Assembly: GCF_963665995.1 (NCBI RefSeq) | Contig: NZ_OY762512.1 | Coordinates: forward strand, 2,666,001 to 2,730,000 | Reading direction: 5' to 3' | DNA: 64,000 bases | DNA from: Pleurocapsa sp. FMAR1 | GTDB lineage: Bacteria; Cyanobacteriota; Cyanobacteriia; Cyanobacteriales; Xenococcaceae | Shown: positions 18,234 to 45,335 of the stretch, piece by piece | Layout: each line of letters starts with the position of its first letter | How positions within the stretch are numbered: position 1 is the stretch's first letter | Position numbers and translations under genes: made by a program | Notes under the pieces: generated by a model | What the model saw: only the letters and a program-made list of their open reading frames with translations | What the model was told of the DNA's origin: nothing | Database searches by the model: none

Positions 18234-18256
18234 TTTGATAGTTGATAAATAAATAT

Positions 18257-18937
18257 ATGGGTTTGAAAGCGGTTTTATTAGATTTTAGCGGTGTAATTAT
18301 CGATGACGAAGAGATAAACCAGACATTAGTAGCAGAGATAATGCTGAGTGAAAATTTACGGGCTGATGAGTCTGAATATGCTCAATATTGTCGAGGTAGA
18401 AGCGATCGCGCTTGCTTAAAAGATATCTTAGCTAATCGTGGTCGCATTTTACCTGATGAATATCTAAATAAGCTAATTAAAACTAAATCCAATGGCTACC
18501 GACAGCAAATCGATCAACTAAATAAATTACCTTTATCTCCCAACTTAGCTGAATTTTTGGCGCAGTTAAAGGAACAAGGTATTGCTATTGGCTTAGTAAC
18601 TGGTGCAATTCGTTCTGAAGTTGAATATATTCTGCAAAAGGCTGAACTAGCAGAATACTTTGATGTCATTGTTGCAGGAGATGACCTTGAACAAAGTAAG
18701 CCTGAACCTGAACCCTATTTGCTAGCGTTAAAAAACTTCAGCTTACAATCATCGGAGTGTTTGGCAATTGAAGACAACCCTGTCGGTATCGAAGCAGCAA
18801 AACAAGCCAAGATACAAGTAGTGGGTATTTCTTCTATTTATCCTCTACATATGTTGCAAAGACAAGCTAACTGGACAGTAGATAATTTTTTAGAAATTGA
18901 GCTAGATCGAGTAGACGAAGTATTGTCCCAAGCTTAA
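18257..18937 (+). CDS. HAD-family phosphatase (beta-phosphoglucomutase-like subgroup)
   Basis: About 226 residues. Motif I is LLDFSGVIIDDEE. The usual nucleophile pattern is DxD, but here it reads DFS, so the second acid/base Asp is replaced by Ser. Motif II is GLVTGAIRSEV, motif III is the lysine in EQSKPEPEPYLLAL, and motif IV is CLAIEDNPVGIEAAKQA. I chose the ATG at 18257 (MGLKAVLL) over an in-frame TTG at 18242, because motif I should fall within the first ten residues. The DFS change may weaken or redirect catalysis. It follows the methyltransferase gene by 23 bases. Confidence 0.85.
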   Translation: MGLKAVLLDFSGVIIDDEEINQTLVAEIMLSENLRADESEYAQYCRGRSDRACLKDILANRGRILPDEYLNKLIKTKSNGYRQQIDQLNKLPLSPNLAEFLAQLKEQGIAIGLVTGAIRSEVEYILQKAELAEYFDVIVAGDDLEQSKPEPEPYLLALKNFSLQSSECLAIEDNPVGIEAAKQAKIQVVGISSIYPLHMLQRQANWTVDNFLEIELDRVDEVLSQA

Positions 18938-19046
18938 TTGAAGTTATGTGCAATCAATAGTAGGAAAAAATGGCGTTGCTGATTTAGCGAAGGAGCGCGG
19001 TCTTTTTGACTGCTCACCGCCATTAATGAACGGTGATTCTAAGCTT

Positions 19047-19074
19047 TTAGCTCTTAGCTCTTAGCCGTTAGCTA
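19047..19074. repeat. Heptanucleotide tandem repeat (STRR-like)
   Basis: Four 7-mers in a row: TTAGCTC, TTAGCTC, TTAGCCG, TTAGCTA. Short tandem heptamers of this kind (STRR) are a known feature of some cyanobacterial genomes. It lies right at the left edge of the duplicated peptide locus. Confidence 0.6.
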
Positions 19075-19077
19075 TAT

Positions 19078-19253
19078 ATTCTTCCAGTAAAAGCTATTGA
19101 TACTGCCCATTTAGAAATTACTGATGCACAGGCTGAATCTAAAGCGATCGCGGTTTGCTCAATGCTGTGTAGAAATTCCTTACATGGGCTTGTTCTGTTG
19201 GGATCTTTAAAAACTTCTATTATTGCTATTGGTAGAAAATTATTTTAATTAAA
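19078..19253 (+). pseudogene. Broken upstream copy of the small secreted-peptide gene
   Basis: This stretch aligns base for base with 19499-19673, the second half of the intact gene plus its 3' untranslated part. It has lost the signal-peptide region. It also carries one extra base in the segment with a HIP1 site (GCGATCGC; the intact copy has GCGCTCGC), which shifts the frame. The distal 61 bases, 19193-19253, are identical to 19613-19673, although most of that stretch is non-coding. It cannot make the peptide. Confidence 0.8.
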
Positions 19254-19267
19254 TATTTATATTAGAA

Positions 19268-19298
19268 GCACGACTTAAATAGTAAGTCGTGCTTTTTT
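19268..19298 (+). terminator. Intrinsic terminator of the broken peptide copy
   Basis: GCACGACTTA (19268-19277) pairs with TAAGTCGTGC (19283-19292) over 10 bp, followed by TTTTTT. It is homologous in place to the terminator at 19677 but differs in sequence by changes that keep the pairing. Confidence 0.85.
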
Positions 19299-19444
19299 AA
19301 TCGATCTACGATCATTTTAATAAGTGATTAAGTAACTATTCAACTAGTGATCCTAGTCATAGAATATTTTATTTGGCAAATTTATACTGGCTTTATAGAA
19401 AAGAAAAAACCTTAACAACCTTTTAAAATTAGTCAGTATAAATC

Positions 19445-19630
19445 ATGAAAAAACAACTATCTTTTGCCCTACTAACTGTTAGCATTTTTAGTCTTAATAT
19501 TCTTCCAGTAAAAGCCATTGGTATTGCCGATTTAGAAATTTCTGATGCCCAAGCTGAATTTGGAGCGCTCGCTAATGGTCAATGGTGTGTAGAAATTCCT
19601 TACATGGGCGTATTCTGTTGGGATCTTTAA
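19445..19630 (+). CDS. Small secreted peptide, 61 residues, unknown family
   Basis: MKKQLSFALLTVSIFSLN followed by ILPVKA forms a good Sec signal peptide, with cleavage likely after VKA or VKAIG. The mature part is only about 35 residues, acidic, and ends in WCVEIPYMGVFCWDL with two cysteines eleven positions apart, which could form a disulfide outside the cytoplasm. I recognise no family. It has its own terminator, and a defective duplicate lies 420 bp upstream. Retention of the reading frame in this copy only, the two cysteines, and the conserved 3' untranslated part suggest it is a real gene. Function unknown. Confidence 0.7.
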   Translation: MKKQLSFALLTVSIFSLNILPVKAIGIADLEISDAQAEFGALANGQWCVEIPYMGVFCWDL

Positions 19631-19676
19631 AAACTTCTATTATTGCTATTGGTAGAAAATTATTTTAATTAAAAAT

Positions 19677-19704
19677 GCGGCTTAAACAATAAGCCGCGTT
19701 TTTT
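19677..19704 (+). terminator. Intrinsic terminator after the peptide gene
   Basis: GCGGCTTA (19677-19684) pairs with TAAGCCGC (19690-19697), loop AACAA, then G and six T. A textbook rho-independent terminator. Confidence 0.9.
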
Positions 19705-19806
19705 GCATTATTGAAAATAATATAATAGCCATAGTTTTAATAACATAATCAATCTATGGCTATCTCAATTTTTTATCTTCAAGGTTAACTAATTCACTTC
19801 TAAGCA

Positions 19807-21093
19807 CTAACTGTACTGTTCTTCTGTATCTAAATCAAATAGCATTTGTAAAGAACGTAAACAATGACGGCGCGCTTCGATGTCTTGCTGCGCTCTCAAC
19901 TGCACCATCGGTTCATGAAGAATTTTATTCACAATCCCTCTGGTTAATGCTTCAATTACTTCTTGGTGCTTTTCTCCAAACTCTGAACCTAGACGAGATA
20001 AAGCTTTTTCCATTTCTTGTTCGCGAATGCTTTCTACTTTACTACGCAAACAGCTAATTGTCGGAACTGTTTCGAGCGATCGCCACCATAATAGATAATT
20101 ATTAACTTCTTGCTCAATAATGCCTTCTGCCTCTTGAGCTATTTTACGTCGGCTTTCTTGATTTGCTGCTACCACTGCTTTGAGATCGTCAACATTATAA
20201 GCATTAACGCATTTAATTTCATTTACGTCGGCTGCAACATTACGGGGAACCGAAATATCGACTAACATCAAGGATTTATCCAGAGTTAGTTCAGTTTCTA
20301 ATTTGGTTCTATTTAGGATTGGTTCAGTAGCTCCAGTACTGGTAAAAACCAGATCTGATGTAGCAACTGCTTTCATCATCTCACTAATTGGATAAATAGT
20401 AATATTGGCTTGAGCAAACTGATCGCACAGTGCTTGCGCCCGTCTGTGGGAACGATTGACGATGGCAATATTCGTTACGCCTTTAGACAGCAAATGTTTG
20501 ACTAGCAAACAAGCCATCTTACCTGCACCAACAATAGTAATGCTATTGGCAGTCAGATTATCAACTTTCGTATAAACCAATTCTACAGCAGCCGAACTAA
20601 TTGAAACCGCACCTGTACCAATACTAGTTTCGCTACGTACTCTTTTGCCTGTAGAGATAGCTTGTTTAAATAAACGATCGAGCAATCTGCCCAAGCCTTG
20701 ATATTTTTGTCCTAGCTTATGGGTATTTTTTACCTGAGCTAGTATCTGTCCCTCTCCTAAGACTAGGCTTTCCAAACCTGCGGACACACGCATCAAATGG
20801 CGCAAAGCATCTTCTCTCAAGAGGGTAAACAGATTGGGGCGAAGTTCCCGTAAGGAAATTTTGGCTTTCTCGGCTAAGAACTGACTAATTTCTTTAACGC
20901 CCTGCTCTATATCTAAAGCTACACCATATATTTCTAAACGATTACAGGTGCTAATAATTGCTATTTCCTCAATGTGAGGATAACCTTTGAGCGTTGCGAT
21001 CGCATTTTCTATCTGAGCTTCGGAAATACTTAATTTTTCCCGCACTTCAACTGAGGCAGTTTTGTGACTTAAACCAACAACTACAATATTCAT
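19807..21093 (-). CDS. hemA: Glutamyl-tRNA reductase
   Basis: First committed enzyme of tetrapyrrole (chlorophyll, haem, bilin, B12) synthesis; it reduces Glu-tRNA to glutamate semialdehyde. About 428 residues. The N-terminal [20 protein letters not shown] and the catalytic cysteine motif [11 protein letters not shown] near residue 50 are present, followed by [17 protein letters not shown], the NADPH-binding [14 protein letters not shown], and a C-terminal dimer domain. I chose the ATG at 21093 (MNIVVVG), the conserved family start, over an in-frame TTG at 21105. Downstream of glpX on the same strand but separated by a hairpin and about 295 bp, so it is probably a separate unit. Confidence 0.96.
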
Positions 21094-21242
21094 TATTTTT
21101 GGCAAATTTGCTTTAATTTAATGTTTATAGCTAGTACTGCATAAAGACCGAGCAATCTATGACTAGATGCTCAACATAAATATTAAAGCTAAAGATTTTC
21201 TAAATTATAAAGTTACGTATCAATCAATTTTTTTTATTCAAG

Positions 21243-36537: not shown

Positions 36538-36609
36538 AGCCCCGAGCGAGGATTGAACTCGCGACCTCGTCCTTACCAAGGACGCGCTCTGCCACTGAGC
36601 CATCGGGGC
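36538..36609 (-). tRNA. trnT: tRNA-Thr (anticodon GGT)
   Basis: A complete cloverleaf: acceptor GCCCCGA/TCGGGGC, D-arm GCTCAGTGGCAGAGC, anticodon stem CGTCC/GGACG around loop TTGGTAA (anticodon GGT), and T-arm with GTTCAATCC. The CCA end is not encoded. GGT reads ACC and ACU threonine codons. Confidence 0.95.
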
Positions 36610-44856: not shown

Positions 44857-45179
44857 AATTTGTGATTAAATTTGATTCAAAACCCTGTAAACACCAATCA
44901 ATAGCTACAGATATTTTGTTTTTTTGAATAACAAAATTCAGCAAAACAAACTTTAGAGTAGTAATTAACTAATTAGTTGTTTGTCAGCCAAAAGCACGGT
45001 ACTTCAATTTCTACCGCTCCATTATTAAATTAAGAAGTGCTTTTTGTTTGAAATTATTTTGGTTTATTACTAGTAATAAATGCTTAAAAAAGTTAAAGCT
45101 ACGTAGAGTAAGCCAACGACAATTGTTATGAAGTGAATTTAACATTATCTGTACCTCGCAGATATGATCTAAGTGTGGT

Positions 45180-45335
45180 TGTATATAGTATCGGCGGGCA
45201 TTCTGACTACAGAAATTGACGACAATCTCTTTACAGTTGCGGGACAGTGCCAGATTTTCACTGAACTTTCCCCTTTACATTTAATGACTGCTCATCATTA
45301 AAACCGAATTTTAGATAGGCAGTATATTTTTGTTT
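45180..45335 (-). promoter_or_regulatory. Cobalamin riboswitch controlling hupE-cobW
   Basis: On the minus strand the conserved B12 core is present: AAAGGGGAAAGTTCAGTG, then AAATCTGGCACTG, CCCGCAACTGTAA (B12 box, plus-strand 45231-45243) and GTCAGAATGCCCGCC. It ends about 320 bp before the hupE ATG. Between them, around 44990-45055, a stem with AAAAGCAC/GTGCTTTT could serve as the terminator part of the switch. Boundaries are approximate. Confidence 0.88.

Follow-up and report, generated by a model that had tools for sequence, protein, structure and literature searches.

The locus described here raises a simple question: why should the best-conserved part of two tandem copies of a small gene lie mostly beyond the stop codon? 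The copies sit between two other genes in the window, by which we mean the whole stretch of 64,000 nucleotides that was analysed, and they share an identical block of 61 bases, 18 of them coding, up to and including the TAA at 19628-19630, and 43 untranslated. The original prediction ascribed this block either to recent gene conversion or to a functional RNA. The explanation that we favour, and consider probable as a whole, is that a gene for a small exported peptide was duplicated in tandem, the right copy being the working gene under CRP-type control and the left copy a pseudogene with a converted 3' part. The duplication, the pseudogene, the conservation of peptide and promoter, and the association with neighbouring genes were computed directly; the features are collected in Table 1.

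Table 1. Features of the duplicated peptide locus (window positions)
Feature	Position	Strand	Basis or value
HAD-family hydrolase gene, upstream neighbour (context)	18242..18937	+	
Dispersed-repeat material directly upstream of truncated left copy	18964..19073	+	own-genome matches
Left copy, 5'-truncated frameshifted pseudogene without CRP-type promoter	19076..19256	+	repeat finder, mismatch count, promoter search
61-base identical block of left copy, probable conversion tract	19193..19253	+	mismatch count
Hairpin after left copy, sequence diverged yet still paired	19264..19296	+	-18.5 kcal/mol, z -5.6
CRP-type palindrome GTGATCCTAGTCAT of right copy, second half-site degenerate (TCAT for TCAC)	19347..19360	+	
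-10 box TATACT, 22 nt after palindrome	19383..19388	+	
Right copy, 61-aa peptide gene, intact; N-terminus signal-like and ending LPVKA, then linker and QWCVEIPYMGVFCWDL	19445..19630	+	
61-base block of right copy, identical to 19193-19253	19613..19673	+	mismatch count
Terminator-like hairpin of right copy, 14-bp stem, T run in 3' arm	19671..19703	+	-17.8 kcal/mol, z -4.3
hemA, glutamyl-tRNA reductase, convergent neighbour (context)	19807..21105	-	

A repeat finder and a direct mismatch count place the two copies where they had been predicted. Positions 19076-19256 are paralogous to 19497-19676, differing at 16 of the 177 aligned bases; the alignment falls into two direct-repeat blocks, 19076-19151 against 19497-19572 (offset 421) and 19156-19256 against 19576-19676 (offset 420). 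The change of offset between 19151 and 19156 means a one-base frameshift, and the frameshift predicted for the left copy is thereby borne out. The left copy was also retrieved, at E = 7.7e-30, when its own genome was searched with 19600-19720, and the homology of the two copies is far above chance level. The mismatches are distributed as 11 in 19076-19151, 4 in 19156-19192, none in 19193-19253 and one at 19254; the identity claimed for the 61 bases is exact, and the coding part, with 15 differences outside the block, is visibly diverged, as had been noticed.

The left copy is a pseudogene. Homology stops at 19076, with no match upstream of that point, so that the start codon and most of the signal-like segment are missing, which agrees with the predicted loss of the signal peptide. 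The promoter pattern GTGA-N6-TCAY-N18..26-TATACT has one match in the genome, at the right copy (the reversed-pattern control has 0), and the left copy is therefore without the CRP-type promoter. Eleven of the 15 coding-part differences would be nonsynonymous, the pattern expected of a decaying copy. The stretch 18935-19080 has at least 32 further partial matches in the same genome (40 of 108 candidates scored), at least 24 of them falling on about 19042-19073, a segment with a heptamer-like dispersed repeat, AGCTCTTAGCTCTTAGC. The promoter and signal peptide of the left copy would have been lost where these dispersed repeats now sit, and the copy would then have been frameshifted while retaining a recently homogenised 3' piece.

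That homogenisation would have been brought about by the neighbouring right copy, most likely via gene conversion. The 61-base block is consistent with conversion or a comparable late exchange, and this origin is favoured because a clean tract lies between diverged paralogous flanks in an otherwise decaying pseudogene. If the 16 mismatches are scattered at random, the mismatch-free run has p = 0.0135 (200,000 permutations), and p = 0.0018 once the terminator-like hairpins behind the copies are counted, although both the lower value and the diverged right-hand flank assume that the hairpins are homologous. The clustering is modest. As p is 0.0135 without the terminators, the identity of the block could be partly luck, and chance would account for it entirely if the duplication is young and its mismatches came to lie outside the block. 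We consider this unlikely, since 15 of the remaining 113 bases of the coding part differ, as do 10 of 32 bases in the hairpins, with the corresponding fall in p. By inspection, several of the differences between the hairpins are paired, which would point to a lasting use in ending transcription; the two hairpins could be of separate origin. A simple consensus terminator scan flagged only a minus-strand terminator at the hairpin of the right copy. Conversion of the left 3' piece by the right copy is the reading retained in what follows.

The right copy is the sole listed ORF of at least 40 aa between the flanking genes and, as predicted, encodes 61 residues with two cysteines. The gene is present in 11 of the 13 genomes of the window's genus, in ten of them intact (the window included) and in one frameshifted; the frameshift, in G003 (L052), lies in the linker, and the promoter site there is intact. 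It was not found in G001 (81% complete) or G010 (99%), and so appears dispensable. Among the named relatives are Pleurocapsa sp. CCALA 161 and Waterburya agarophytonicola (order Pleurocapsales). Diverged members, 13 copies in all, were found with a 17-sequence profile in 10 of 14 further genomes of the taxonomic family, and an eleventh (G021) has a partial profile match at a contig end. One genome, G017, has three copies, two of them on contig 357 (L158) about 1 kb apart in a second tandem duplication and the third elsewhere. In 376 genomes of the order, with no more than 16 candidates scored in each, profile A2 found only partial matches outside the family, with E from 1.9e-4 to 0.01, all ending by profile position 49 of 62 and missing the C-terminal loop.

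The peptides share a layout of signal-like N-terminus, variable linker and aromatic-rich C-terminal Cys loop. Across the ten intact genus members the CDS identity is 0.645 (0.385 shuffled), M1, K2, L5, S6, N18, P21, A24, C48, P52, M54, G55 and C58 are invariant, and pooled pN/pS is 0.32 for the leader, 0.94 for the linker and 0.36 for the C-terminal motif, with pS at 0.56-0.63 and synonymous changes near saturation. The signal sequence originally proposed is upheld as a signal-like pattern conserved in the family, and is a prediction from that pattern. The loop has the form C-x-x-x-P-x-M-G-x-x-C in the window's genus and varies among genera (CVWVPGLGWVCN, CCWVFFYGCLCG, CYWLGDMLVCK, CTAWPGFCRW and others). 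An AlphaFold2 model built on four sequences is poor overall (mean pLDDT 58.8, pTM 0.26), with residues 41-60 at pLDDT 68 and 77 by ten-residue block and strands at 46-51 and 55-60; these would place C48 opposite C58 and make a disulfide-closed beta-hairpin, C48-C58, plausible.

No known family in Pfam or NCBIfam matched the peptide above cut-off. The NCBIfam model NF041742 (WGxxGxxG) weakly matches nine of the ten genus members, the best at E 1.6e-4 and 22.2 bits, below its curated cut-off of 35 bits, and the WGxxGxxG motif is absent by inspection. Among solved structures there was no relative (best E 0.067, over leader residues), and in the open-access literature searched no paper on the family was found. 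Plasmids gave no match with the window peptide and none of 134 pattern stretches in viral contigs was confirmed, and a mobile origin was rejected. By these comparisons the right copy belongs to an apparently undescribed, lineage-restricted peptide family.

Cyanobacterial CRP-activated promoters are described in PMC2633013 as TGTGAN6TCACA with a TAN3T box about 22 bp downstream, and the SyCRP1 and AnCrp promoters given there share with those of the genus the core GTGA-N6-TCAC and the 22-23 bp to the -10 box. GTGA-N6-TCA[CT], 22 nt and TATACT follow one another in each of the ten intact genus copies, a pattern that the genus promoter script required and that none of the ten failed; the core is GTGA-N6-TCAC in nine, the window copy being GTGA..TCAT. 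The promoter stretch has an identity of 0.700 across the ten against 0.398 shuffled. Of the 13 copies outside the genus, seven have a site, with a spacing of 22 or 23, and six are without. The full core is found in four (L140, L145, L060 and L142) and a degenerate first half-site in three more, ATGA in L139 and GCGA in L141 and L143, the last two sites carrying little weight individually, as 22 and 27 of 300 shuffled sequences equal their score. The outer bases differ from those of the SyCRP1 and AnCrp sites, being mostly A/G-GTGA..TCAC-T in the genus; here, moreover, the target is a small peptide gene, half-sites are degenerate in some copies and the sites are predicted.

A common pattern, [TC]GA-N6-TCAC-N22..23-TA box, written after the sites were seen, matches at most 300 nt from the ATG in 16 of the 23 copies, the window copy with its TCAT being among the seven misses; elsewhere in the same loci it matches once in 139,036 strand-bases, one locus being counted twice in that background. 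Genome-wide, 10 of 12 strict promoter matches in the window's genus stand at the peptide gene, against 2 of 6 in other genera of the taxonomic family; the sister-genus genomes G019 and G015 have strict matches away from it, as do two of the three in G013. Over 376 genomes the promoter pattern matched in 68, and the 50 match stretches examined (30 plus 20 chosen) contained one peptide of the family, that of G020 (L121). In the window's own genome, nine more CRP-type matches that include a -10 box stand against one for the reversed pattern, two of the nine sharing one palindrome, and the ORFs downstream show no clear theme. At genome positions 4577807-4577875 (L178/L179) one CRP-type palindrome is placed for two divergent promoters, one of them toward a lipoprotein-like ORF. 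A sigma-70 consensus scan of 18900-19850 gave four sites, all on the minus strand and at chance level.

Twelve Crp-type HTH matches in the genome exceed the cut-off. One protein (L075) is NtcA (TIGR03697, E 3.4e-115); another (L076) has cAMP-activated CRP as its best NCBIfam match, at 67 bits where the model cut-off is 266, and a Crp-family regulator as its best match among solved structures. Besides NtcA, the genome encodes in L076 a putative CRP-like regulator, at genome position 3781964, which may be the regulator of the peptide promoter.

The right copy converges on hemA; this adjacency recurs in L005, in L007/L051 (one genome) and in L139, of another genus, and pyrC lies near the peptide gene in four other genus loci, its family having been tested in one (L010). 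Near 10 of the 13 copies outside the genus is a gene for an exoprotein with a two-partner-secretion (TPS) domain. In nine (L060, L140, L141, L142, L143, L145, L148, L154 and L156) it is downstream on the same strand and opens 82-444 nt after the peptide stop; in L146 it is upstream and divergent, about 0.9 kb off. L139 is the copy beside hemA, and the tandem pair of G017 is at a contig end, its TPS neighbourhood beyond judging. Six of the ten neighbours were assigned to PF05860 by direct Pfam test, two by genome scan (G014 and G020) and two by BLAST. As the genomes hold 3-44 TPS genes each, the repeated adjacency is not chance, although with shared ancestry it counts as a single arrangement that has been conserved, not as ten separate events. 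Neither the window nor the fetched flanks of the genus loci showed a TPS gene, so that a surface role rests on the association in sister genera, which themselves share ancestry.

Four features together suggest such a role, namely the leader, CRP-type control, the Cys loop and, in sister genera, the neighbouring TPS genes. A CRP-activated surface peptide is our best guess; its start site, CRP binding, export, disulfide and surface role are what we infer. A CRP-type regulator, cAMP-bound by analogy, would bind the palindrome upstream of the gene, whose centre, as reckoned from the -10 box, would lie some 41 bp before a start site predicted near 19395, and would activate a single-gene transcript. 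The precursor, with its Sec-type signal-like leader, would be exported and cleaved after A-x-A, the two cysteines would close a beta-hairpin acting at or outside the cell surface, and the peptide would probably work with the adhesion or aggregation machinery. According to PMC7690835, CRP proteins of Synechocystis act on pilus genes and piliation. EbfG1-4 of Synechococcus elongatus, described in PMC4997328 as small secreted proteins acting in biofilm formation, are like the present family small cyanobacterial proteins, secreted there and predicted to be exported here. By that description they have a double-glycine motif and depend on the peptidase transporter PteB, whereas the leaders here, in an inspection of the alignment, are of Sec type, end in A-x-A without GG and are followed by the Cys loop.

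The same peptide may alternatively be read as a secreted signal akin to a pheromone or bacteriocin, with a conserved export leader and a genus-specific loop. The loop is indeed conserved within the genus and different among genera, and aromatic residues make up 0.26 of it, compared with 0.05 of the leader and 0.03 of the linker; however, its identity outside the genus (0.36) is not far under that of the leader (0.45), in a poor alignment. The neighbourhoods weigh further against such a signal: among neighbouring ORFs of at least 100 aa, the clusters occurring in at least three loci were limited to hemA, pyrC, the TPS exoprotein and a fourth group, which sits beside three copies of one genus, and as far as these groups were identified no immunity, transporter or receptor gene is among them. 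PADLOC gave no family and PHROGs weak single matches only. We find this alternative doubtful, and a CRP-controlled peptide acting at the cell surface is the reading we keep.

There remains the proposal that the 3' block is a functional RNA, either a small RNA derived from the 3'-UTR or a regulatory element, with its identity selected in both copies. The long, largely untranslated identity beside a diverged pseudogene speaks for it, both terminator-like hairpins still fold despite their differences, and in the window sequence, on which structure was gauged, the 43-nt UTR forms a weak hairpin somewhat stabler than shuffles (z -2.0; 9 of 200 shuffles as good). The 61-mer, however, folds no better than shuffles (z -0.13), and the folding looked to as a sign of RNA function did not materialise. 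Across the ten genus members, pairwise identity in the first 100 bases beyond the stop averages 0.474, near the shuffled level of 0.428; in the 100 bases preceding the CRP box it averages 0.440 against 0.394. A search with 19600-19720 of the window's own genome and 29 relatives gave matches in 26 of the 30 genomes at E <= 1, many of them short and weak. The best outside the own genome, at E 6.8e-4, is to the coding end of the peptide gene in G004 and spans 34 bases, 27 of them coding; the next covers 21 UTR bases in G008, away from the peptide gene of that genome (E 9.6e-4). Homologues elsewhere, on which the original prediction had staked itself, exist for the peptide; for the 3' block none was found among the 29 related genomes. 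Rfam gave no family at gathering score over the block. Elsewhere in the window Rfam placed a cobalamin riboswitch at 45175-45323 (minus strand, above gathering score) and a tRNA gene at 36538-36609 (minus strand). Neither conserved nor unusually folded, a functional 3' RNA was rejected and seems very improbable; of the two origins first proposed for the block, conversion, with its clean tract between diverged flanks, is the better fit.

The block is thus probably a recombination by-product of tandem copies, and it cautions against reading identity between paralogues as RNA function. The right copy brings to light a small-protein family that no model in the searched libraries covers and that has a conserved CRP-type promoter, and provides a candidate cAMP target in which one promoter serves one 61-aa product. 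It is a tentative thought, and one to which we give a small chance, that these are a lineage-specific family of cAMP/CRP-controlled disulfide-hairpin peptides, exported by cyanobacteria of the Pleurocapsa group and differing in their loop between genera, that serve as a species-typical surface signal or as a partner of TPS adhesins. If true, cAMP signalling would be linked to cell-cell contact in cyanobacteria that live in aggregates.
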